A DNA stretch of 36,649 nt from NCBI GenBank assembly GCA_902604225.1, contig CACKXV010000007.1, forward strand, positions 1-36,649, in the 5' to 3' direction. Every line of letters begins with the position of its first letter. Positions within the stretch are counted from its first letter, which is position 1. Positions 6,438-36,649 of this stretch are shown piece by piece. The notes beneath the pieces were generated by a model. It was not told where the DNA came from. It did no database searches and saw nothing but the letters and a program-made list of their open reading frames with translations. This DNA comes from an uncultured Pelagibacteraceae bacterium (GTDB lineage: Bacteria > Pseudomonadota > Alphaproteobacteria > Pelagibacterales > AG-422-B15). The position numbers were made by a program, and so were the translations under genes.

Positions 6438-7916
6438 TTAGGTTGTGAACTGAGTTATAAACGCTTCTGCTTTAGATAAGATTTTTTTCTTTCTTTCATT
6501 TTTCATTTTATCATAAACGCTTACCATCATGTTTAGTCTTGGATTGCTACTAAAAAATTTTCTATTTTTATTTATAAATCTCCAATAAAGACCATCCACT
6601 GTCTCACACCATTCACCTTTTTTAAAATCCATCATTTTTAAGTAATAACTCGAACCACAGATGTATGGTTTTGTCGCAAATATCCCCCCATCACTAAAAA
6701 GACCCATGCCATAAACATTTGGCACCATTACCCATTCAGAGGAGTCAACAAACATCTCCATGAACCATTTGTAAACTTGTTTGGGTTCAATCTCACATAG
6801 ATTCATTAGACTTGATAGAACCATCAGTCTCTCAATATGGTGCGTCCAACCATATTTCAATGCATTTTTAATTGAATGATCCAAGGGCGGTATTCCAGTT
6901 TCGCCCGAGTACCACTCTTTTTTAAATTTTCTCTTATGTTTAAAAAAATTTCCCTTTTCCATTTCTATTGAGTAATTCTGATAAATACCCCTCATAAATT
7001 CTCTCCATCCAATTACCTGTCTAATGTAGCCCTCTAAAGAGTTTAAATTAACTTTAGTTTTTAATTTTTTTAATCTATCAACGATCTTTTCAGGTGTAAT
7101 TAATCCACTATTGATTAGAGGACTAAGTGCGCTGTGAAATAGAATATTATCTCTTTGACTTACTGCATCCTCATAATCGCCAAATAGGTTTAATTTCTCT
7201 ATTAAAAAATCATCTAGCCACGCTGTTGATTCTTTATGTGTTGTAGGCAACCAAAAATTTTCAGTATTTCCCGGATGATTTTCAAATGTTGTATTTATAA
7301 ATTTCTTTAATACTTTTGTATGCTTAGTTTCAGAAGCTACTGGACGTTTTGGTAACTTAACAGTCTGCGGTAATTTTTTTCTATTATCTTTATCAAAACT
7401 CCATTTTCCTCCAACTGGTTTTTCATCTTTCACTAATAAGTCAAATTTAATACGACTCATTTTGTAATAATTGGCCATTAAAGGTTTTTTTTTGTTTTCT
7501 AGATATTTTTTAAAATCATCTCTTGAATTAAGAAACATAGGGGAGGTGACGATTACTCTTTCTAATCCAATTTCTTTTACTATTTTATTTATCTTTCTTT
7601 CAAAAGGCTTGTCTTCAACTTCAAAAGAGAAAACTCTCTTTGATTTATTTTCTTTGATTGATTTTTTTAATTTATCTTCATATTTATTTGAAAAATTATT
7701 TTTACAATCATAATAATCAGTCTCAAAACCTTTAGATTTTAATAAATCATTGTAACTGCGCATTGATGATAAGAAATGAAGTATTTTTAATTTATGATGC
7801 TTCTCATAAGTGCAAAGACCCAAGTCTTCAGCCATAAATATTTTACAATCTTTGTAATTTTTTAGGTATAGAGGATCAAATAACTGATTTCCTAAAACTA
7901 TAAATATATCATTCAT
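6438..7916 (-). CDS. deoxyribodipyrimidine photolyase-related protein (DPRP / PhrB-like cryptochrome-photolyase family)
   Basis: N-terminal DIFIVLGNQLFDP and C-terminal WREFMRGIYQNY, LDHSIKNALKYGWTHHIERLMVLSSLMNLCEIEP, WVMVPNVYGMGLFSDGGIFATKPY are typical of DPRP proteins. Confidence 0.88.
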   Translation of the reverse strand: MNDIFIVLGNQLFDPLYLKNYKDCKIFMAEDLGLCTYEKHHKLKILHFLSSMRSYNDLLKSKGFETDYYDCKNNFSNKYEDKLKKSIKENKSKRVFSFEVEDKPFERKINKIVKEIGLERVIVTSPMFLNSRDDFKKYLENKKKPLMANYYKMSRIKFDLLVKDEKPVGGKWSFDKDNRKKLPQTVKLPKRPVASETKHTKVLKKFINTTFENHPGNTENFWLPTTHKESTAWLDDFLIEKLNLFGDYEDAVSQRDNILFHSALSPLINSGLITPEKIVDRLKKLKTKVNLNSLEGYIRQVIGWREFMRGIYQNYSIEMEKGNFFKHKRKFKKEWYSGETGIPPLDHSIKNALKYGWTHHIERLMVLSSLMNLCEIEPKQVYKWFMEMFVDSSEWVMVPNVYGMGLFSDGGIFATKPYICGSSYYLKMMDFKKGEWCETVDGLYWRFINKNRKFFSSNPRLNMMVSVYDKMKNERKKKILSKAEAFITQFTT

Positions 7917-7930
7917 ATATTTATATTATT

Positions 7931-8476
7931 TTAGAGACTTAAAGCTTTTTCAATTTCATTTATGAATTTACGTGAACTTGGTTTAGTTAAGGCTGTAAAA
8001 CCAGCAAGTGCATTTCCATTTTTATCAATAATAATTTTGTGAAAATTCCATCTGGGCACTCCCCCGATAAAACCTAATTCTTTTTTTGACCACTGAAAAA
8101 AAGGGTGAGCATTTTTTCCTTTTACAATATTTTTCTCTGTAAGTGGAAAGGTTATATTAAATGTACTTTCACAAAATTCTTTAACTTGTGCATTATCACC
8201 AGACTCTTGATTTCCAAAATCATTAGAAGGAACCCCTATAATAACCAACCCCCTATCTGAATAAGTATTATATAAATCTTGCAAACCATCATATTGGTAA
8301 GTGAAGCCACACAGGCTAGCGGTATTTACAACAACAATGGTTTTCCCTTTATAGTCAGATAATTTGATTATATCTTCCTCATTAATTGATTTAAAAGAGT
8401 GGTCGTGTGCATTCTCTGTCATAGCTGTGCCCATGTATAAAATAAGAGTGATTGTGATTAAAACAAAGTATTTCAT
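7931..8476 (-). CDS. glutathione peroxidase family protein (Cys type) with signal peptide
   Basis: VVNTASLCGFTYQYDGLQDLYNTY, GVPSNDFGNQE, WNFHKIIIDKNG motifs; hydrophobic N-terminus. Confidence 0.92.
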   Translation of the reverse strand: MKYFVLITITLILYMGTAMTENAHDHSFKSINEEDIIKLSDYKGKTIVVVNTASLCGFTYQYDGLQDLYNTYSDRGLVIIGVPSNDFGNQESGDNAQVKEFCESTFNITFPLTEKNIVKGKNAHPFFQWSKKELGFIGGVPRWNFHKIIIDKNGNALAGFTALTKPSSRKFINEIEKALSL

Positions 8477-9768
8477 TAGAAATTTATTAAGATATGTACA
8501 TAAACGCTAGCAAAGTAACCGATTGCTATGATTGGCGTCCATTTCAAATGACCAAAAAAAGTATACATCCCTCTTGATTGTCCCATCAAAGCAACACCAG
8601 CAGCAGAACCTATTGAAAGCATACTTCCTCCAACCCCTGCAGTTAGTGTCACTAATAGCCATTGTGAGTCAGGCATTGCAGGCTCCATAGTTAAAACGGC
8701 AAACATTACAGGAATATTGTCGACAATAGCTGACAAAATTCCAACTAGTATATTCGCATTGGTTGCCCCTAAATCTGTATACATGAATTGAGATACATAT
8801 TCCAAGTAACCTATAAAGCCAAGGCCTCCAACAGATAAAATTACACCAAAGAAAAATAATAAAGTATCCCATTCAACATGTGCAACATTTTCAAAAAAAT
8901 CATATTTTTTTTCTTCAACGTTAGTTGTCTTAATTTTTATATAAAAACTATAAAGTTGCAGGTAAGCTAATCCAGTCATCATTCCAAATACAGGAGGTAG
9001 ATGTAAAAAGTTATGAAAACTAACCGCAGTAAGTATTGTTAAAAGTCCTAAAAGAATTATAACCTTTCCTCCATACTTAATTTCAACAATTTCTTCAGCA
9101 ACATTAGGTTTATGATCTGATACAAAGAAATGCATTATGCCTGCAGGGATTATGTAGTTTACAATAGAAGGAATTACTAATGCAAAAAATTGAAGAAAAT
9201 CAAGTTGGCCTGCTTGCCATACCATTAATGTTGTAATATCGCCAAATGGGCTAAATGCGCCTCCAGCATTTGCTGCAACTACGATATTTACACACGCTAT
9301 CCCAACGAACTTAGGGCTTGAAGATCCAACGGCTACTACAACAGCACATAAAACAAGTGCAGTTGTCAAATTATCGGCTAACGGCGAGAGAAAGAAAGCA
9401 AGAACTCCTGTAATCCAAAATAATTGTCTGTAGCTGAATTGATTTTTAATCAACCATGCTTTTAGAGAATTAAATACATTTCTTTCTTCCAATGCATTAA
9501 TGTATGTCATCGCGACCAATAAGAAGAAGGCAAGTTCAGCATATTCAAGAAAACTATGTCTAATCTCGTGTTCGACCATTTCATAATGAGGCGTACCCGA
9601 ATATGCAAACGCAACTATGCCCCATATTAGACCTGCAGCAAGAACAACAGGTTTAGATTTTCTTAAGTGAGTGAATTCCTCAGCCATCACAAGTGCATAA
9701 GCAAAAACAAAGATAGCTAGAGCCGAGAACCCAGCCCAGTGATAAGTTAAATCTAGTGAATGTTCCAT
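8476..9768 (-). CDS. nhaD: Na+/H+ antiporter NhaD
   Basis: Polytopic protein; FFLSPLADNLTTALVL, NAGGAFSPFGDITTLMVWQAG, SAIVDNIPVMFAVL, GSMLSIGSAAGVALMG are NhaD-like. Confidence 0.9.
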   Translation of the reverse strand: MEHSLDLTYHWAGFSALAIFVFAYALVMAEEFTHLRKSKPVVLAAGLIWGIVAFAYSGTPHYEMVEHEIRHSFLEYAELAFFLLVAMTYINALEERNVFNSLKAWLIKNQFSYRQLFWITGVLAFFLSPLADNLTTALVLCAVVVAVGSSSPKFVGIACVNIVVAANAGGAFSPFGDITTLMVWQAGQLDFLQFFALVIPSIVNYIIPAGIMHFFVSDHKPNVAEEIVEIKYGGKVIILLGLLTILTAVSFHNFLHLPPVFGMMTGLAYLQLYSFYIKIKTTNVEEKKYDFFENVAHVEWDTLLFFFGVILSVGGLGFIGYLEYVSQFMYTDLGATNANILVGILSAIVDNIPVMFAVLTMEPAMPDSQWLLVTLTAGVGGSMLSIGSAAGVALMGQSRGMYTFFGHLKWTPIIAIGYFASVYVHILINF

Positions 9769-26062: not shown

Positions 26063-27778
26063 ATGAAATTTGATAAAAATAAATTGCCTAGTCGTCATGT
26101 ATCTGTTGGTCCAGAACGTGCACCTCATAGATCATATTATTATGCGATGGGATTGAATGAGGACGACATAGGCAAGCCTTTTGTTGGCGTTGTATCTACT
26201 TGGAACGAAGCCGCTCCATGCAACATTGCTTTAATGAGACAAGCACAATCTGTAAAAAAAGGCGTAACTCAAGCAGAGGGCACTCCAAGAGAGTTTTGCA
26301 CCATTACAGTTACCGATGGGATCGCAATGGGTCATCAAGGTATGAAGTCATCCTTGGTATCTCGTGAAGTAATTGCAGACTCTACCGAACTTACAGTTAG
26401 AGGACATTGTTACGACGCAATAGTAGGACTGGCAGGATGTGACAAGTCTCTTCCTGGTCTGATGATGGCCATGTGCCGCTTAAATGTACCTAGTGTATTT
26501 ATGTACGGGGGAAGTATTCTGCCAGGAAAATACAAAGGTAAAGATGTTACTGTAGTTGATGTATTTGAGGCTGTCGGCAAGTATTCATCTGGTAATGCAA
26601 CTGAAGAAGAATTGCATGAACTTGAATGTGTAGCATGCCCAAGTGCGGGTGCTTGTGGAGGACAATTTACTGCAAACACCATGGCATGTGTTTCAGAAGC
26701 AATTGGATTAGCACTACCATATTCATCTGGTGCCCCAGCTCCATATGAGGAAAGGGATAAATATGCGTACGAAGCTGGAAAGCAAGTTATGCAATTGATT
26801 GAAAAAAATATTCGACCACGAGATATAGTTACGAGGAAGTCACTTGAAAATGCAGCAACTATTGTTGCCGCCACAGGAGGATCTACAAATGCGGGACTTC
26901 ATTTACCTGCAATTGCTCATGAGTGTGGTATCAAATTTGATTTAGATGATGTAGTCGAAATATTTAAACGCACACCTTATCTTGCTGATTTAAAACCTGG
27001 TGGACAGTATGTTGCCAAGGATGTTTATGAGGCTGGAGGTGTACCTATAATTATAAAAACTTTATTTGAAGGTGGCTATATTCATGGAGACTGCATGACA
27101 GTTACTGGCAAAACAATGAAAGAAAATTTAGAAAGTGTGAAATTTAATAAAGAACAAAACGTTATTCGTTCATATGACAACCCTCTAAGTCCTACGGGAG
27201 GAGTTGTAGGCTTGAAAGGTAACTTAGCACCCGATGGAGCGATAGTAAAAGTTGCAGGAATGGAAAATCTTAAGTTCAAAGGCAAAGCAATATGCTTTGA
27301 CTGTGAAGAGGATGCCTTTGAATGTGTAAAAAATAATAATTACAGCGAAGGTGATGTATTTGTTATTCGTTACGAAGGGCCCAAAGGAGGCCCAGGCATG
27401 AGAGAAATGTTGTCAACAACAGCTGCAATATATGGACAAGGTATGGGCGATAAAGTAGCGCTTATAACTGATGGTCGCTTTAGTGGAGCAACAAGAGGAT
27501 TTTGTGTAGGACATGTATCACCTGAAGCTGCAGTTTGCGGAACAATTGCATTGGTTCAAGATGGTGACGAAATAATATTAGATGCTGAAATAGGAGAAAT
27601 TCAGCTTAATGTGCCAGAAAATGTCCTGGAAGAAAGAAAAAGTAAGTGGAAAGAGAGAGTAACTGATTTCAACTCAGGAACCCTATGGAAATACTCAAAG
27701 ACAGTAGGGTCTGCCTCATCAGGGGCTGTAACCCATCCAGGAGCAAAGGAAGAAACGCACACTTACGCTGATATTTAA
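26063..27778 (+). CDS. ilvD: dihydroxy-acid dehydratase
   Basis: [82 protein letters not shown]. Confidence 0.96.
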
Positions 27779-27949: not shown

Positions 27950-29287
27950 ATGACATTAATCATTTCAATTTTAAAAAAATTTCTTGTAATCACAATATTC
28001 GCTTCATTTACACTTATAAATGCTAGTGCACAGACATTAACAAATATGGTTAATCAAATTCTTGATAGCCATGAGGATATTGTAAATGCAAAAAAAGAAT
28101 TAGAAGAGGCAGATAGAGATATAACAGATGCTCTTCTAGCATATGCTCCGGATTTATCAGTAAAATATGAGGCAGGAAGGAATGATAAATATGAGGCAAG
28201 TTCAAATTCACAGTTAGATTTCAAAACGTGGGATTGGACTTGGAAACAAAAGATAATGGATTCAGGTGCTACTCTTAATGGCATTAGAAATAAACAATTG
28301 GAGTCTGAAAAGTCTCAGTTAGATTTTATCACAGCTAGAAATGATTTATTAATTGAGGCCGCAGATGCATACCTTGGACTAATAAAAGCTGGAGAAAAGC
28401 TCGAGGCTTCAGTAGCAGCTGAAGAAAATACTAGAGCTACTTCTGGACAGGAAGAAATCAGAGTTCAAGTTGGATCTGGATTGGCATCTGATGTATTGAA
28501 AGCAAAAAGACAATTAGCGAGCGCTCAAAAAACTGTAATTACAGATGAGAAAAGTTTTAAATCTGCGGTATTCACTTTTGAGAAACTTTTTAAAACTGAT
28601 GCAGTTGAAGTAAGTAGTCTTGTCAAACCTCGATTAAGTCCAGCGGCATTAGCAATGGTTCCAAATTCTATGGATGCAACTGTAGAGATGGCGCTTGCTA
28701 ATAACAGAGATTTATTGAAATCAAAAATGGATGTTGATATTGCAAGAAATGATTTAAATGTCGCACTTGCTGGATTTGGTCCATCTGTAGATGGAGAATT
28801 AAAATACTCTGATAAAAAAGATGCGTCTCATACAGGTGGCAGTCATCATGAAGAGCAATTAAAGGTAACTGTTGAGTTTCCTATCTCAGGTCTTTATATG
28901 GAATTGCCAGGTTACTTGAATGATCGTTCTGCTTTAGACAGAGCAATCAATGATCTAGCTGTTAAAGAGAGAGATACTATAAAAAAAGCGAAGGATGCTT
29001 GGATTGAATATTCAAATGCTAGAACGATGCTATCTTACAGTGAAAATGAAGCAACGATTGCTCAAGAACTTTTGACGATTGCTCAAAAAGAAAGAGCTGC
29101 TGATCAGACTGATGCTGCGGCTGTTCTGTCAGCTGAAGAGACACTCGAGAGCTCATTAAAGGATTTGTCTGATGACAGCATGTCTCTTGTAACTTCTGTT
29201 TATGAAATCCTTGATGTAATTAATTTACTAGAACCGTCAATGATAGAAAATACAAAAGTTGAGGGAACATTCAACTCATCATCATAA
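27950..29287 (+). CDS. TolC-family outer-membrane efflux/secretion channel protein
   Basis: Signal peptide; LLIEAADAYLGLIKAGEKLEASVAAEENT, VGSGLASDVLKAKRQLASAQ (TolC-type helical motif), second internal repeat from about NRDLLKSKMDVDIARNDLNVALAGFGPSV. Confidence 0.82.
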   Translation: MTLIISILKKFLVITIFASFTLINASAQTLTNMVNQILDSHEDIVNAKKELEEADRDITDALLAYAPDLSVKYEAGRNDKYEASSNSQLDFKTWDWTWKQKIMDSGATLNGIRNKQLESEKSQLDFITARNDLLIEAADAYLGLIKAGEKLEASVAAEENTRATSGQEEIRVQVGSGLASDVLKAKRQLASAQKTVITDEKSFKSAVFTFEKLFKTDAVEVSSLVKPRLSPAALAMVPNSMDATVEMALANNRDLLKSKMDVDIARNDLNVALAGFGPSVDGELKYSDKKDASHTGGSHHEEQLKVTVEFPISGLYMELPGYLNDRSALDRAINDLAVKERDTIKKAKDAWIEYSNARTMLSYSENEATIAQELLTIAQKERAADQTDAAAVLSAEETLESSLKDLSDDSMSLVTSVYEILDVINLLEPSMIENTKVEGTFNSSS

Positions 29288-29347
29288 GGATTAATTAGAA
29301 TAAAATATAATATTAATATCAAGATTAAATTAGAAAGGAATAATTAA

Positions 29348-32300
29348 ATGCCAGTAACTCCAGCAGAAGCTCAAGAGTTTTTTCAGGAGGTTGCGTCCGC
29401 AGCATCACCGGAAGAACAGCAGGCATTAATACAAGAATACGCAGCTAATAATGACAATCCAGACGAAATGTTGGCCGCTGTGGTTCAAGCGAACCCTGCA
29501 GCTGCTCAACAAATTGCATCTGCAACTGCTCAGGCAATACCTGAACAAGCAGCAGAGATAGCTGGAGCAATTGCTGCAGCTGCACCACAAACTGCAAATG
29601 CTACTGCTGCTGCAATGGCATCAGCTGCACCTGATATTGCACAAGATGTTGCATCAGATGTTGTGAATAACGCTCCTGCCGCTGCAGGTGCTGTCGCTGC
29701 ATCCCTTACACAAATTAATCCTGAGGGCGCTGCTGAAATGGCAGCTGCAATTGCTGAGTCAACACCCGCTGCAGCAGGCGCTGTTGCTGCTGCCGTTGCA
29801 CAAGCTGCTCCTGAACATGCCGTTGAAGCCGCTGCCTCAATGGCTGCTGCAAATCCTGCAGCTGCAAGTGGAGCTGCAAGCGCTGTAGCTGCCGCTGATC
29901 CTGAAGCTGCTTCTCAAGTCGCAACTGCAATGGCACAAGCCGCTCCTGAAGCTGCTGCTGCTGTAGCTGCTGGCGTTGCATCTGGCGTCGCTCAAGCTGC
30001 AATTGCAGAAGTAAATCAAGAAACAGCACAAGCTAATGCTGAAATTCAAGCTGATGCTCAAGGCCAAATAGGCGATGCACAAGCTGATTTTGCCGAAGCC
30101 ACAGGCGCTGGATCTGAGTCTGCTCTTGCTGACGCACAAGGTGAGATTGCCGACGTTCAATCTGCTGCTCAAGACGCTTTGATTGAAAGCAATCAAGCAG
30201 GACAAGAAGCTGCTCTAGCTGCCTCACAAGAAGCTACTGCTGAAATTATATCTGAAATGATTGCAATGAATCCTGATGCTGCTGCAGAAATTATAGCTGG
30301 AACTGCAGCATCAAATCCTGAGGCTGCTGCAGAAATTGTTCAAGAAATGATGGAGTCAAATCCAGAAGGTGCTGTTGAAATGTGTGCAGATATTGCTGAG
30401 GCAAACCCTGCCGCCGCTGCTCTTGCAACAGAAGCAATTATAGAGTCCAATCCTGAACTTGCTATTGAAGCTACTGCTGCTATGGCTGAAGTTGCACCTG
30501 CTGCAGCTGGCGCTGCTGCAGAAGTAATGGCTGAATTAGCTCCTGAACAAGCAGGTGAAGCTGCGATTGCAATGCAAGATGCTGCGCCTGAAGCTGCTGC
30601 TGCAATTGCTGGCGGGGTTGCTCAAGGCAATCCTGAAGTCGCTGCTGAGGTAGCTAACGAAATGGCTGCCGCTGATCCTGAAGCAGCTGCTGATATTGCA
30701 ACAGGTGTCGCCGTTGCTGCACAAGCCAATGCTCAGGCTGAAGTTGCTGAGGCACAAGCTGAAGCCCAAGCTCAAGTAGCTGAGGTTCAAGAAGAGCTTG
30801 CTGACGCCGTCAGTGAAGCACAAGCAGATTTAAATTCTGATGATCCAAATATTGTTGCCGATGCTCAAGCCACTCTAGCAGACGCACAAGCACAAATTGC
30901 AGATGCTCAAGCTGCTGGACAAGAAGCTATTGCAGAAGTCCAAGGTGCTGCAGCAGAGACCGCACAAGATTTAGCTGGTGATATCGCTGGCGCGATGATG
31001 GAAGCTAATCCTGAAGCAGTTGCTGACATTGCAGAACAAGTAGCTGAGTCTGCACCAGGTACTGCTGCTGGCATAATGAATGCTGTAGCTGAGGTTGCTC
31101 CAGAACAAGCTGTTGAAGCTGCCGCAACAATGGCTGATGCAAACCCTGCCGCTGCAGGTGCTGCCGTGGAAGCTGTCACTGAAGCTTTACCTGAATTAGC
31201 GACTGAAGCTGCTGTGGCTATGGCGGAAGCTGCTCCAGAAGCTGCAGCAAGTATTGCTGCAAGTGTCGCTCAAGCAAATCCAGATGCTGCAACTGAAATT
31301 GCATCTGAAATGGCAAACGTTGCTGCAAACAATGAAAACTTTTCTCAAGATGAAGCTCTAGCTATGCAAACTGCAATTGCAACTCAAGTTGCAAGTGCTG
31401 CACCTGAAGCTGCCGCAGAAGTTGCGAGCGCAATGGTAGAGTCAATGACAACTGGTATTGAAGGTAATGCCAGTGAAGGTGCTTTAGCTGAAGCCGCTGC
31501 TGCGATGACAGCAAATGTTGCATCTGCTGCAACCCAAGCTGATCCTGAAGGAGCCGCTGACTTAGCAAGTACCATGATGGAACAAATGGCTGAGATACCA
31601 GGTATTGAGCCTGAGGCATTGGCCGAGACTGGTGCGGGCATGACAGCAAATATGGCTGCAACTGCCGTCGCTGCTGATCCAGAGGGAGCCGCTGATTTAG
31701 CTGGTGCCATGATGGATGTTATGGCAGATATTCCAAACGTTCCTGAAGATTTTGACATGGCTGGTCAAATGGCTGAGATGACAACTAATATTGCGACCCA
31801 AGCTACAGCAGCAGCTCCCGAGCAAGCTGCTGAATTAGCTGGAGCAATGATGGAGCAAATGGCAGATATTCCTGGCGCTCCTGATGATTTTGATGCTGCC
31901 GCGCAAATGGCAGAAATGACAGCAAATATAGCAACTGCAGTTGCAGCTGCGGATCCTGAAGCTGCAGGTGAAATTGCTGGTCAAATGATGGAACAAATGG
32001 CTGAGATCCCTGGCGTTTCTTTAGAAGACATGGCTGAGTTTAACAATGATATGGCTGCACAGGTTGCGCAAGTTGCACCTGAAACAGCAGGGGATGTATT
32101 GGGAGCAATGGCTGCTGCTGATCCTGGTGCTGCAGCTGAACTAGCAACTGCAATGGCAGAAGCTAATCCTGCTGCCGCAGGTGAGGCGATGGCAGGACTT
32201 GCTGAAGCTGCGCCAGAACTTATTGCAGATGTTGCTGGAGCAGTTGCTGAAGCTGCACCAGAATTATCTGGAGTCCTAGCTGCCGGAGTTGCATCTGGTA

Positions 32301-35300
32301 ACCCAGAAGTTGCAGCTGAGGCCGCTCTTGCTTTATCAGAAGTTAATCCAGACGCTGCCGCACAAATCGCTGCAAGCACTGCTGCTGCTAATCCAGAATT
32401 CGCTGCAGAAGTTGCAGCTGCAATGGCTGAAGCCAATCCTGATGCCGTAGCCGATATGGCTGCCGCTGTTGCACAATTTGCACCAGACGCTGCTGCATCT
32501 GTTGCATCTGAACTTATTTCTAATGATCCTGAAGCTGCAGGTGAACTCGCAGCTGCAATGGCCGAAGCAAACCCAGCTGCTGCTGGAGATATTGCTGGCG
32601 CGTTGATGGAGTCTGCTCCTGAACAAGCTGTGGCTGCCGCTACAGCAATGGCTGAAGCTAGTCCTGCTGCCGCTGCATCTGCAGCACAAGGTATGGCTGC
32701 TGTTGTTGCCGATGCAGGTTTCTTTGATGGTGGAAGTGCTGACATAGCAACTCAAGCTGCTGCTGCTATGGCAGAAGTCGCACCAGAAGTTGCTTCCTCA
32801 GTTGCCGCTGGTATCGCTAGTGGTAATCCTGAAATGGCTGCCGAGGTTGCAGTCGCAATGGCAGAAGCCGCTCCAGATGCTGCTTCCGCAATCGCAGGTG
32901 GAATGGCTAGAAGCGCACCTGATGCCGTTGGCGATGTTATTGGGGCAATGGCTGATGCTAACCCAGAAGCTTTGAATGATATTGCATCAGGTGTTGCCCA
33001 ATTTGCACCAGCTGCTGCTGGTGATGCAATGGCTGCTGTTGTAGAAGCAAATCCAGAAGCTGCAGTTGCTGCCGCAACTGCAATGGCTGCTGCTAATCCC
33101 GCTGCTGCTCAAGATATTACTGCCGCTATAATAGAAGTTGACCCCGGCGCTGCCGCAGATACTGCCGCTGCATTAGCAGAAGCAGTCCCTCAAGCCGCTG
33201 GAATGATTGCTGCAGGTGTTGCAGAAGCTGCACCCGAGGCTGCTGCGGATGTTGCTGGTTCGCTTGCTGAAGCTAACCCAGCTGCCGCTGCTCTAATTGC
33301 CACTTCTGTTGCACAAGCTGCACCAGAACTCGCAGGTGATATTGCTGCTGATATGGCCGCCGTTAATCCTGAAGCTATGGCAGGAGCTGTTGCAAATATT
33401 GCAGCAACTGTTGCTGCTGCGAACCCAGATTTAGCTGCAGACATTGCAGGAGATATGGCTGCTATTAATCCGAATGCCGCTGGCGCAATTGCAAATGTTG
33501 TTTCAGCTCAAGCTCCAGAAGCCGCAGCCGAAGCTGCAGCCGCATTAATTCAAGCTAATCCAGATGCCGCTGGCGCAATAGCTGCTGGAGTTGCTGCTCA
33601 AGCACCTGAAGCCGCCGCTGAAGCTGCTACGGCATTAGTTGAAGCTAATCCAGATGCCGCTGCCGCAATTGTTGGTGGAATGGCAAATGCAAATCCAGAC
33701 GCTGTTGCTGATGTTGCAGGGGCTATGATGGAAGCTGCTCCTGAAGCTGCCGCTGCTATGGCTGGTGCTGTTGCTCAAGCTGCGCCTGAAATGGCTGGAG
33801 ATATGGCAATAGCAATTGCTGAGAGTAATCCTGAACTTGCTGTTGAAGCTGCTGCTGCAATGGCAGAAGCAAACCCTGCTGCTGCACAAATGGCCGCAGA
33901 AGGTATGATGGAAGCTGCACCTGAGCTTGCTGCGGACGCTGCAAATGCAATGGCTGCTGCTGCCCCTGAAGCTGCTGCAGATATTGCTGGTGGAATGGCA
34001 ATGGCTAACCCTGATGCTGCTGCAGAAATTGCTGGCGCGATGGTCGAAGCTAATCCCGAAATGGCTGGAGACATTGCTACTGGAGTTGCGATGAGTGCTC
34101 CTGCCGCAATGGAAGATGTGGCTAGTACTTTAATTGAAGCTAACCCTGAAGCGACAGCAACTATGGCTGCTGTTCTTGCTGAAACTGCACCGGGCGCTGC
34201 TGATAACATGATGAATACTGTTGCAGATATTAATCCTGAAGCTGCACTTGCTGTTGCTGGTGCAATGGCTGAAGCTAATCCAATGGCTGCTGAGGGAACC
34301 GCTGGCGCAATAGCAGATACGTTGCCTGATCTTGCTGCTGATGCAGCAGGTGCTATGGCCGCTGCTAATCCTGACGTAGCAGGTGATATTGCTGCAGGTA
34401 TGGCTGCTGCTAATCCAGAAATTGCTGGCGACGTCGCTGGCGCTATGATGGATGCGGCGCCTGAAGCTGCACAGGGAATTGCACAAGGAATTGCCTCCGC
34501 AGCCCCTGACCAAGCTGCAGATGTTGCTGGCGCAATGGCAGAAGCTAACCCAGAATTTGCTGGTGATATTGCTGGCGGAATGGCTGCAGGAGACCCTGGT
34601 CAAGCTGCAGATATTGCAACTGCAATGGCTGCTGCAAACCCTGACGCTGCAGGTGAAATTGCTGGTGGCGTTGCTGAATTTGCTCCTGCTGCTGCAGGAG
34701 ATGTTGCTGGCGCTATGGTTGAAGCCAATCCTGAAGCTGCGATAGAGATGGCAACGGCAATGGCTGAAGCTAACCCACTTGCTGCTGGCGCTGCAATGGG
34801 GGCAATGGCTGAAGCAGCACCTGAGATCGCTACTGATGCTGCAGCTGCAATGGCTGAAGCTAATCCTGATGCAGCTGGTTTTGCTGCTCAAAGTATGGCT
34901 GACGCTGTTCCAGAATTAGCCGCTGAAGCTGCAACGGCAATGATGGAAGTTGCACCTGACTCTGCTGGTGCAATTGCAGGAGGAGTTGCAAGAGGAGATG
35001 TCGATATTGCCGCTCAAGTTGCAACTGATATGGTTAACGCTAATCCAGAATTAATGGGAGATATTGCAGGAGGTGTTGCTCAAATGGCTCCTGGTGCTGC
35101 TGGTGACGTAGCTGGCGCAATGGTTGAAGCAAATCCAGATGGCGCAGCCGATATGGCCGCTGCTGTTGCTGAAAATGTCCCTGGAGCAGCTGGTGCTGTT
35201 GCAGGCGCTATAGCAGAAGCTGACCCAGCACTTGCTGCTGAAGCTGCTGGTGCGATGATGGAGGCAAACCCTGCTGCTGCTTCTGCAGCTGCTGCTGGTA

Positions 35301-36649
35301 TGGCAAATGCCGCACCTGAAGTTGCGGGTGATGTTGCTGGTGCCATGATGGAAATTGCAATGGCACCTGACTTTGCTGCTGACTTTGTTGAAAATGCTAC
35401 TACTGCGAATCCAGACATGAGTCCTGAACAACTTGATGCGCTAGTAGAGAATTTCGCAGGAAATGCGGTTGGCTCAATTGCTCAAGGTATGGCAGTAGGT
35501 GATCCTGATATAGCTGGTGATATGGCAGGGATTATGATGGATGCTGCTATGGCCAATCCTGAAATGGCTGAAAATTTTGTAGGTGAAATTGCAGGCGGTA
35601 TGGCTGCAGGCGCGCCTCAACAAGCAGGAGATATTGCTGTTGGCATGATGGAAGCAAATCCTGAGATGGCTGGAGATATTGCTGGCGGAGCTGCCGCAGG
35701 CAACCCACAAGTTGCAGCAGGAGTTGCAATGGAAATGGTTGGATCAGATCCGAGTTTAGTTAACGATATTGCTGGTGGGGTTGCTGAAATGGCACCTGCC
35801 ACTGCAGGTGGTGTTGTTGGCGCAATGGTCGCTGATAATCCTGATATTGCAGCTGGAGTAATTGATGCAGCAATGACAGCAAATCCAGCCGCCGCTGGTG
35901 CCGTTGCTGGTGGAGTTTTAGCTGCAGTTCCTGATGGGGAAGCTGCTATTGGAATTATGCAAGAAGTTGCAGCTGCTAATCCAGAAGCTGCTGGTGCCTT
36001 TGCAGGAGGTATAGCGCAAGCTAACCCTGTTGCTGCCGGTGAAATGGCTGGTGGTTTGGCTGCAATTGATCCTGGACTAGCAGGAGATATGGCAGGCGCC
36101 ATGGCAACTGCTAACCCTGCTGCTGCAACGATGGTTGCTGCAGGAGTAGCTGAATTTGCTCCAGATGCTGTGGGAGCAATTGCTGGTTCTATGGCTGAAG
36201 CTAATCCAGCTATTGCAGGACAGGTTGCTGCTGGTATGGCTCAGTTTGATCCTGGTGCCGCAGCACAGTTTGCTGGAGATTTAGTTGCTGCTAATCCCGA
36301 TATGGCTGCGAATATTGCAAGTGGAATGGCACAATTAGCTACGCAAGGTGGTATGGCAGATTTAGCTGGTGAGTTTATGGGTCAAATGGCGGCAGCTAAT
36401 CCTGAAATGGCTGGCATGATGGCAGCTGGGATGACTCAAATGATGGGTAATCAAGGCGCGGCATTCATGGCTGATATGGGCGATGTAATGGGGGCCGATA
36501 TGGCAGCTCAATTACAGGCTGATATGCAATCACAAATGGCAGATATGCAAGCAATGATGCAAAGTGCAATGCAGGGCGGAGACATGTTTATGGGGCCAAT
36601 GATGACGGGTGACATGATGGGACCTGCTGACTTTGGTGGAATGATGGAT
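29348..36649 (+). CDS. giant Ala-rich 15-residue-repeat protein, 3' truncated by window edge (2434 codons, no stop seen)
   Basis: ATG 29348 preceded by gaaagga RBS; frame open to 36649 by manual translation (MPVTPAEAQEFFQEVASAASPEEQQALIQEYAANNDNPDEMLAAVVQANPAAAQQIASATAQAIPEQAAEIAGAIAAAAP...). Absent from the ORF track because it lacks a stop in the window. Confidence 0.95.
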   Translation, partial: MPVTPAEAQEFFQEVASAASPEEQQALIQEYAANNDNPDEMLAAVVQANPAAAQQIASATAQAIPEQAAEIAGAIAAAAPQTANATAAAMASAAPDIAQDVASDVVNNAPAAAGAVAASLTQINPEGAAEMAAAIAESTPAAAGAVAAAVAQAAPEHAVEAAASMAAANPAAASGAASAVAAADPEAASQVATAMAQAAPEAAAAVAAGVASGVAQAAIAEVNQETAQANAEIQADAQGQIGDAQADFAEATGAGSESALADAQGEIADVQSAAQDALIESNQAGQEAALAASQEATAEIISEMIAMNPDAAAEIIAGTAASNPEAAAEIVQEMMESNPEGAVEMCADIAEANPAAAALATEAIIESNPELAIEATAAMAEVAPAAAGAAAEVMAELAPEQAGEAAIAMQDAAPEAAAAIAGGVAQGNPEVAAEVANEMAAADPEAAADIATGVAVAAQANAQAEVAEAQAEAQAQVAEVQEELADAVSEAQADLNSDDPNIVADAQATLADAQAQIADAQAAGQEAIAEVQGAAAETAQDLAGDIAGAMMEANPEAVADIAEQVAESAPGTAAGIMNAVAEVAPEQAVEAAATMADANPAAAGAAVEAVTEALPELATEAAVAMAEAAPEAAASIAASVAQANPDAATEIASEMANVAANNENFSQDEALAMQTAIATQVASAAPEAAAEVASAMVESMTTGIEGNASEGALAEAAAAMTANVASAATQADPEGAADLASTMMEQMAEIPGIEPEALAETGAGMTANMAATAVAADPEGAADLAGAMMDVMADIPNVPEDFDMAGQMAEMTTNIATQATAAAPEQAAELAGAMMEQMADIPGAPDDFDAAAQMAEMTANIATAVAAADPEAAGEIAGQMMEQMAEIPGVSLEDMAEFNNDMAAQVAQVAPETAGDVLGAMAAADPGAAAELATAMAEANPAAAGEAMAGLAEAAPELIADVAGAVAEAAPELSGVLAAGVASGNPEVAAEAALALSEVNPDAAAQIAASTAAANPEFAAEVAAAMAEANPDAVADMAAAVAQFAPDAAASVASELISNDPEAAGELAAAMAEANPAAAGDIAGALMESAPEQAVAAATAMAEASPAAAASAAQGMAAVVADAGFFDGGSADIATQAAAAMAEVAPEVASSVAAGIASGNPEMAAEVAVAMAEAAPDAASAIAGGMARSAPDAVGDVIGAMADANPEALNDIASGVAQFAPAAAGDAMAAVVEANPEAAVAAATAMAAANPAAAQDITAAIIEVDPGAAADTAAALAEAVPQAAGMIAAGVAEAAPEAAADVAGSLAEANPAAAALIATSVAQAAPELAGDIAADMAAVNPEAMAGAVANIAATVAAANPDLAADIAGDMAAINPNAAGAIANVVSAQAPEAAAEAAAALIQANPDAAGAIAAGVAAQAPEAAAEAATALVEANPDAAAAIVGGMANANPDAVADVAGAMMEAAPEAAAAMAGAVAQAAPEMAGDMAIAIAESNPELAVEAAAAMAEANPAAAQMAAEGMMEAAPELAADAANAMAAAAPEAAADIAGGMAMANPDAAAEIAGAMVEANPEMAGDIATGVAMSAPAAMEDVASTLIEANPEATATMAAVLAETAPGAADNMMNTVADINPEAALAVAGAMAEANPMAAEGTAGAIADTLPDLAADAAGAMAAANPDVAGDIAAGMAAANPEIAGDVAGAMMDAAPEAAQGIAQGIASAAPDQAADVAGAMAEANPEFAGDIAGGMAAGDPGQAADIATAMAAANPDAAGEIAGGVAEFAPAAAGDVAGAMVEANPEAAIEMATAMAEANPLAAGAAMGAMAEAAPEIATDAAAAMAEANPDAAGFAAQSMADAVPELAAEAATAMMEVAPDSAGAIAGGVARGDVDIAAQVATDMVNANPELMGDIAGGVAQMAPGAAGDVAGAMVEANPDGAADMAAAVAENVPGAAGAVAGAIAEADPALAAEAAGAMMEANPAAASAAAAGMANAAPEVAGDVAGAMMEIAMAPDFAADFVENATTANPDMSPEQLDALVENFAGNAVGSIAQGMAVGDPDIAGDMAGIMMDAAMANPEMAENFVGEIAGGMAAGAPQQAGDIAVGMMEANPEMAGDIAGGAAAGNPQVAAGVAMEMVGSDPSLVNDIAGGVAEMAPATAGGVVGAMVADNPDIAAGVIDAAMTANPAAAGAVAGGVLAAVPDGEAAIGIMQEVAAANPEAAGAFAGGIAQANPVAAGEMAGGLAAIDPGLAGDMAGAMATANPAAATMVAAGVAEFAPDAVGAIAGSMAEANPAIAGQVAAGMAQFDPGAAAQFAGDLVAANPDMAANIASGMAQLATQGGMADLAGEFMGQMAAANPEMAGMMAAGMTQMMGNQGAAFMADMGDVMGADMAAQLQADMQSQMADMQAMMQSAMQGGDMFMGPMMTGDMMGPADFGGMMD
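29976..30268 (+). other. Gln/Ala-rich coiled-coil-like interruption 1 within the giant CDS
   Basis: VASGVAQAAIAEVNQETAQANAEIQADAQGQIGDAQADFAEATGAGSESALADAQGEIADVQSAAQDALIESNQAGQEAALAASQEATAEIISEMIAM; the Pro-marked 15-aa register is lost. Confidence 0.7.
30719..31006 (+). other. Gln/Ala-rich coiled-coil-like interruption 2 within the giant CDS
   Basis: AQANAQAEVAEAQAEAQAQVAEVQEELADAVSEAQADLNSDDPNIVADAQATLADAQAQIADAQAAGQEAIAEVQGAAAETAQDL; similar to interruption 1. Confidence 0.7.
31541..32074 (+). repeat. block of 41-46-aa super-repeats within the giant CDS
   Basis: Unit starts at 31541, 31676, 31814, 31952 (spacings 45, 46, 46 aa, then 41 aa); each has DPEGAADLAGAMMDxMA(D/E)IPxxx...(Q)MAEMTxNIATxVAA-like content. 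Confidence 0.75.

Follow-up and report, generated by a model that had tools for sequence, protein, structure and literature searches.

The repeats of LapA, BapA, SiiE and MpAFP are of the beta Ig-like or the coiled-coil type, and the repeat numbers of adhesins usually vary between species. RsaA of Caulobacter is an S-layer protein exported by a T1SS, and known S-layer domains tend to be beta and compact. SAR11 cells rank among the most abundant of the ocean and, to our knowledge, have not been credited with making large secreted surface proteins. In the literature, MpAFP is a giant T1SS adhesin (PMC4083281), SwmA and SwmB, giant exoproteins of marine Synechococcus, are linked to motility and grazing defence (PMC4949707), and S-layer proteins are known cargo of T1SS/ABC exporters (PMC8277102).

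The window, by which we mean the whole stretch of DNA analysed (36,649 nucleotides), is contig C7 of genome G000 and ends inside a gene for a giant Ala-rich protein that lies next to a tolC gene. We take the host lineage to be SAR11 subclade II (GTDB family AG-422-B15). The features at the right end of the window are:

26063..27778, +: ilvD (dihydroxy-acid dehydratase, named by eye), left neighbour and marker of the locus, outside the system
27950..29287, +: TolC-type outer-membrane channel of the T1SS (PF02321 OEP, E=7.8e-35, above cut-off)
29334..29339, +: AAAGGA, Shine-Dalgarno-like, 8 nt 5' of the giant ATG (direct sequence reading)
29348..36649, +: giant gene, 5' part, 2434 aa (ORF reading; orthologues in relatives)

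Elsewhere in the window, a photolyase-related protein (DPRP, 6438-7916, minus strand; PF04244, 2.4e-55) is encoded near a CitMHS-type transporter (8476-9768, minus strand).

A repeat array in an open frame

The sequence-only reading had described one stop-free frame from the ATG at 29348 to the last base, and this was borne out, with 2434 codons, 0 stops and an open 3' end. The remaining five frames contain 43-235 stops over the same stretch, and the longest open run in base-shuffled versions does not exceed 242 codons. Since the contig totals exactly 36649 bases and stops there, the giant gene is truncated by the assembly. The open frame is real and selected, as it is kept in ten other assemblies, with low dN/dS in the nine compared. 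An early stop, a frameshift or a chimera, any of which was to count against the frame, all fail as objections.

The composition of the 2434-aa part is extreme: 36.6% Ala, no Trp, two Arg and no Lys, compared to a Lys share of 7.7% in 15 other proteins of the window. The protein is very acidic (computed pI about 4) and has at most one Cys. By computation, trypsin cuts this part only twice and returns three peptides of 1188, 694 and 552 aa. We discarded high expression as a reading of the codon usage: the gene favours T-ending codons, but its bias does not clearly follow that of ribosomal genes (r = 0.23, p = 0.13).

A search with a unit profile (NPEAA[A/G][D/E][I/V]AGAMAEA) detected around 129 units of 15 aa, with the unit NPEAAGDIAGAMAEA, which cover 79% of the 2434 aa. 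The repeat had been said to build the protein almost wholly; its existence is confirmed, and the extent was slightly overstated. Autocorrelation at lags 15, 30 and 45 is 0.31, 0.35 and 0.30, respectively, versus 0.17 in shuffled versions (z = 23, 30 and 21). The 30-aa period is slightly stronger than that of 15 aa, which indicates that units alternate pairwise. Within the protein, we distinguished the following segments:

29348..29491, +: N-terminal cap, aa 1-48, highly conserved (alignment; AF2 helices with pLDDT ~65-70)
29987..30268, +: insert 1, aa 214-307, Gln/Ala-rich long helices (AF2 helices 200-254 and 257-307)
30719..30961, +: insert 2, aa 458-538, Gln/Ala-rich long helices (AF2 helices 444-494 and 500-537)
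31322..32074, +: units alternating with 26-32-aa linkers, aa 659-909, period ~46 aa (periodicity, unit profile)
33422..35356, +: longest unbroken run, 43 tandem 15-aa units, aa 1359-2003 (unit profile)
36503..36649, +: start of the Met-rich region, at the contig break (sequence; Met-rich tandem repeats in a relative)

By eye, no signal peptide was seen in the cap. In the alignment, an 18-aa indel in insert 1 and 7-aa indels in insert 2 separate lineages. Within aa 601-900, the strongest lag is 46.

When we modelled 28 units with AF2 (the first of the 43-unit run), each folded as one helix, and the inserts gave long helices. Overall the models are all helical with a mean pLDDT of ~82, a pTM of only 0.60 and shallow alignments of 10-11 close rows. 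The array is predicted to be a very long alpha-solenoid of Pro-capped helices, interrupted by helical inserts and of uncertain geometry. Foldseek associated the AF2 models only with generic HEAT/karyopherin-like alpha-solenoids (TM <= 0.34). Searches of Pfam, NCBIfam and PDB sequences with the array returned no convincing family, and we found no published description of the giant protein in the open-licence literature. PF09280 (XPC-binding) reached 55.5 bits against the whole giant protein (cut-off 26.4), and we rejected membership since 0 independent stretches pass and only 13-44 of the 57 positions are matched. Neither the Lys-free array nor the Met-rich region thus has a convincing match to any library family.

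The secretion locus and the 3' half of the gene

The product of 27950-29287 also matches TIGR01844 (type_I_sec_TolC) with E=1.6e-36, below the curated cut-off. Apart from the MAG NAT245, the relatives that we name bear the title Pelagibacteraceae bacterium AG-/AH-...; in those relatives that we read, ilvD is again the left neighbour. Intact loci of the same genus have the order ilvD - tolC - giant - ABC - HlyD-type adaptor, which is contiguous in G026, G012 and G010, and the complete giants of relatives measure 2958, 3058 and 3176 aa. The relatives' ABC transporters (548-551 aa) are closest to the LssB/PrtD models, without the N-terminal 140 positions of LssB, and their HlyD-type adaptor matches TIGR01843 above cut-off (E=4.5e-96). 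Extra genes occur 3' of HlyD in L061 (16219-17163 and 17166-18110), L063, L153 and L158. They include an inverse-autotransporter beta-domain protein (PF11924, 1.4e-31 in L061, with similar-looking ORFs in L063, L153 and L158) and, in L061 and L063, an uncharacterised protein of 314-329 aa.

By searching the window's own genome with a relative's ABC transporter, we found contig C16, which holds the following piece:

G000:C16, L149:9992-11914, -: giant gene, 3' half, 640-aa piece (Met-rich, RTX, C-terminus)

In gene direction, C16 carries the Met-rich stretch, the RTX repeats, the C-terminus (...SITDADFVAL), the ABC and HlyD genes and, past HlyD, APS-kinase-like, adenylyltransferase-like and aprA-like genes, in the same order as in relatives. 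Both halves of the relatives' gene order are present in this genome, with TolC in the window and ABC and HlyD on C16 past the 3' half. There is no exact overlap between the ends of C7 and C16, and we joined them by synteny rather than through overlapping reads. Joined in this way, the two contigs would form one giant gene, with the 5' three quarters in the window. From two relatives with a common anchor sequence, we estimated a Met-rich gap of ~160-170 aa, which returns a joined protein of ~3,230-3,250 aa (2434 plus the gap estimate plus 640). The 3' end of the gene, for which an extension of the contig had been proposed, could be located on C16 of the same genome.

The Met-rich region is 408-515 aa long, contains 33%, 40%, 40% and 41% Met in four proteins (median 40%) and is characterised by MGPDP, MGMDP and MDPMM motifs. 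It is followed by a C-terminal domain of 148-290 aa, in which only some giants have RTX motifs. PF00353 matches the 3' half of the window genome (E=5.5e-10, 39.5 bits versus a cut-off of 23) and the giant of G012 (60.2 bits). GGxGxD is absent from the giants of G026, G010 and G017, and PF00353 has no match in those of G026 and G010. The giants end in an acidic residue followed by mostly non-polar ones (DADFVAL, SDSDFTVA, SDADFTIV); these ends look like those of T1SS substrates, in which an uncleaved C-terminal signal would direct export. The claim that the protein is unlike known repeats consequently holds for the array, with no convincing library family, and not for the RTX part, where PF00353 and the T1SS locus identify a characterised kind, a strong match that lies beyond the window end. 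For the same reasons the suggestion of an undescribed family was half right: it applies to the array and the Met-rich part, which have no convincing match, and not to the RTX tail and the T1SS.

We also looked for components of related systems. LapG (Peptidase_C93) was found in 0 of 7 genomes, with a control match in Caulobacter. By eye, no retention module with a dialanine site was seen in the alignment or the AF2 model, where the array starts at ~aa 49, and no acyltransferase gene was recognised among the ORFs neighbouring the giant gene.

Conservation, distribution and apparent absences

We aligned ten other assemblies to the window protein and computed dN/dS for nine of them. Whole-length values range from 0.034 to 0.086, with a top single-segment value of 0.19 (L080), which confirms the strong selection that had been supposed from the size of the gene. 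In orthologues from other genomes of the single-cell type, the array is retained unit by unit. Over the shared part, two of the ten aligned assemblies have no indel and five have short deletions in common (three within the inserts, of 18, 7 and 7 aa, and one of 1 aa elsewhere); L078 has those common deletions and a 9-aa insertion, L080 has 10 aa deleted, and the L082 alignment is partial and more diverged. Since the indels are few and small, the units remain in register.

Identity between the window and G012 is ~97-98% in the array, 95% in TolC, 87% in HlyD and 70% in ABC, and the corresponding values for G026 are ~92%, 76%, 66% and 49%. The C-terminal part of the window genome is 35% identical to that of G012. 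As judged from these identities, the array is frozen and evolves more slowly than its own exporter, and the secretion module is fast-changing. Between G017 (L070) and G012 (L062), flanking genes share 93-99% identity and the ABC genes 51%. When L070 is compared to L062 and L149 together, the flanks are 92-99% and the ABC genes 50-51% identical, and the C-terminal domain, ABC and HlyD resemble a module swapped between lineages. From sequence comparison, the secretion module seems to have been exchanged between lineages.

Array orthologues are detectable in 15 genomes of one genus, the window's own included, and the N-terminal profile matches 14 of the 397 genomes of the order, all in the same genus. 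Outside this SAR11 genus, we found the array in one unplaced MAG only. A scan of 385 genomes from the wider class yielded nothing beyond a FecR-like protein that has a dozen similar units, and no array was found in phages and viral contigs. The locus in NAT245 (L082) is a SAR11 locus within a MAG titled Gammaproteobacteria, a title that is probably wrong. Two orphans, L064:6464-11491 (minus strand, G022:C12, 1675 aa) and L065:7273-9522 (minus strand, G030:C11, 749 aa), have diverged array sequence, RTX C-termini and no adjoining T1SS genes that we recognised; they may use the exporter of the giant.

HlyD is present in 11 of the 14 genomes of the genus that were tested, including four in which no array orthologue was found. 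For several near-complete genomes we considered true absence, and rejected it in G001, G023 and G038, as HlyD is present and contigs begin or end inside the ORF 5' of ABC. In G001, G014, G023, G025 and G038, ilvD is unmatched, which indicates that the whole region is missing from these assemblies. Several apparent absences are therefore assembly breaks, and a call of absence cannot be relied on in this set. In G005 the system is truly absent from this site: sulfate-assimilation-type genes, which are unusual for SAR11, follow ilvD, and no HlyD lies above cut-off. In place of the T1SS cluster, L116:13991-17582 of this genome carries a PAPS-reductase-domain protein, a CysN/APS-kinase fusion and DUF2061.

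Three sequence irregularities were also observed. In L075 (AG-430-P03 contig 28) an inverted tolC fragment is joined to ilvD, probably as an amplification chimera. The frame L155:1222-1881 (G030:C19) resembles a periplasmic binding protein at its start and the T1SS ABC transporter at its end, and is probably a chimera. The frame 5' of ABC in L157:1-1416 (G022:C11) starts Cys/Leu-rich, probably because the Met-rich repeats contain a frameshift or because the frame is the wrong one.

Proposed role, rival readings and known systems

Judging from the locus and the sequence, we consider it very probable that the giant protein is exported by the T1SS. Our preferred reading, which we hold to be reasonably probable, is that the protein is an RTX giant exported by the T1SS, with a body that forms a long acidic alpha-solenoid and serves as an extracellular fibre or coat. 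The fibre or coat role taken separately, to which the anatomy of the protein points, has about an even chance; the surface or structural role proposed in the sequence-only reading is the likeliest one here as well. The chain would leave in one step through ABC-HlyD-TolC, directed by its C-terminus, and would fold outside the cell, aided by calcium on the RTX part as predicted. Since the orthologues of G026, G010 and G017 have no RTX motifs, the calcium-dependent step may not be general. The exported protein could form an extended fibre or coat, attached to the surface or released, that serves in adhesion, keeps grazers or phage at a distance or brings cells into contact, and the Met-rich part would be a variable outer or sticky segment. 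A bolder version, which we put forward tentatively, is that this is a new class of extracellular fibre or coat, in which the Lys-free Ala-rich single-helix solenoid serves as a ruler or spacer of nearly fixed length with a hypervariable Met-rich tip, and that it may be a main surface or released protein of this whole SAR11 genus, missed by tryptic metaproteomics.

Some of the same evidence could indicate an S-layer or capsule-like coat that tiles the cell as RsaA does. T1SS export with an RTX C-terminus, a pI of about 4 and at most one Cys would agree with it, and the near-constant length of the array is compatible with a lattice. However, a solenoid of ~130 helices and a region with 33-41% Met are unlike known S-layer domains, and this reading is rather unlikely. 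We regard as unlikely that the function resides in the Met-rich part, either as a secreted binder of soft metals (copper, silver or mercury) or as an oxidant quencher, with the array as its carrier. Selection points to the array, which is frozen, whereas the Met-rich region is fast-changing and of low complexity, and the part of the ORF that is assembled 5' of ABC in G038 is Pro/Gly-rich with ~1% Met. This reading would account for 408-515 aa with 33-41% Met, for the 65-99 MxxM motifs per complete protein (n=3) and for the presence of the Met-rich region in every copy whose assembled array reaches it.

It is very unlikely that the giant has a structural or scaffold role inside the cell and adjoins the T1SS by chance. 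The alpha-solenoid models do resemble cytoplasmic karyopherins and HEAT proteins at low TM, but the order tolC - giant - ABC - HlyD recurs in each intact relative, and RTX C-termini are found in the window's own genome and in the orphans L064 and L065. RTX repeats and a T1SS in one locus also recall pore-forming RTX cytotoxins. This role is highly improbable for a protein with 0 Lys in 2434 aa to receive acyl groups, no acyltransferase gene seen in its neighbourhood and an array without a hydrophobic pore domain. Finally, assemblies break nearby, and the inverted tolC piece of L075 is typical of amplification chimeras; an assembly or reading artefact has nonetheless almost no probability, given a frame that is in register in ten other assemblies and the dN/dS values of 0.034-0.086 in nine.

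If the preferred reading of an exported fibre or coat is correct, a T1SS with a ~3,200-aa substrate, whose array is under strong genus-wide purifying selection, would mean that SAR11 makes something large outside the cell. With only two tryptic sites in 2434 aa, standard trypsin metaproteomics would hardly see the giant protein, and the proposed check of metaproteomes would fail with such digests. Glu-C, Asp-N or chymotrypsin digests could detect it, given 205 Glu, 143 Asp and 257 Phe/Trp/Tyr/Leu/Met sites in the 2434 aa. Because assemblies break in or before the Met-rich part, the gene is truncated in most contigs and appears to be missing from some genomes. Both blind spots are testable and correctable.

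Compared to RTX/T1SS proteins of the HlyA/PrtB/LapA class, the locus has the same ABC, HlyD and TolC in one place, no signal peptide seen and, in the 3' half of the window genome, GGxGxD nonapeptides and an acidic-plus-non-polar C-terminus. It differs from them in that the giant body is Ala-rich helical and Met-rich rather than Ig-like/beta, protease, lipase or pore, and in that several giant orthologues have no recognisable RTX motifs. As in LapA, BapA, SiiE and MpAFP, a huge repetitive secreted protein lies beside its own T1SS. Unlike in LapA-type adhesins, no LapG was found in 7 genomes and no retention-like N-terminus was seen, and in contrast to giant adhesins the array length of the SAR11 giant hardly varies between species. 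Compared by description, SwmA and SwmB are also giant exported proteins of an open-ocean bacterium; however, Synechococcus belongs to a different phylum and SwmB has ~10,800 aa.

At a smaller scale, XPC-binding/STI1-like motifs (PF09280) share, by eye, short helices with a Pro about every 15 residues, but the likeness is composition-driven and limited to a two-helix piece. The FecR-like protein of a distant alphaproteobacterium (G752:C13, L145:6751-8634, minus strand) contains ~12 similar 15-aa Ala-rich units. It differs from the giant in its length of 627 aa, its Lys-rich tail and its front, FecR-like by eye, and no T1SS genes were recognised beside it; its units are probably of independent origin or very old.
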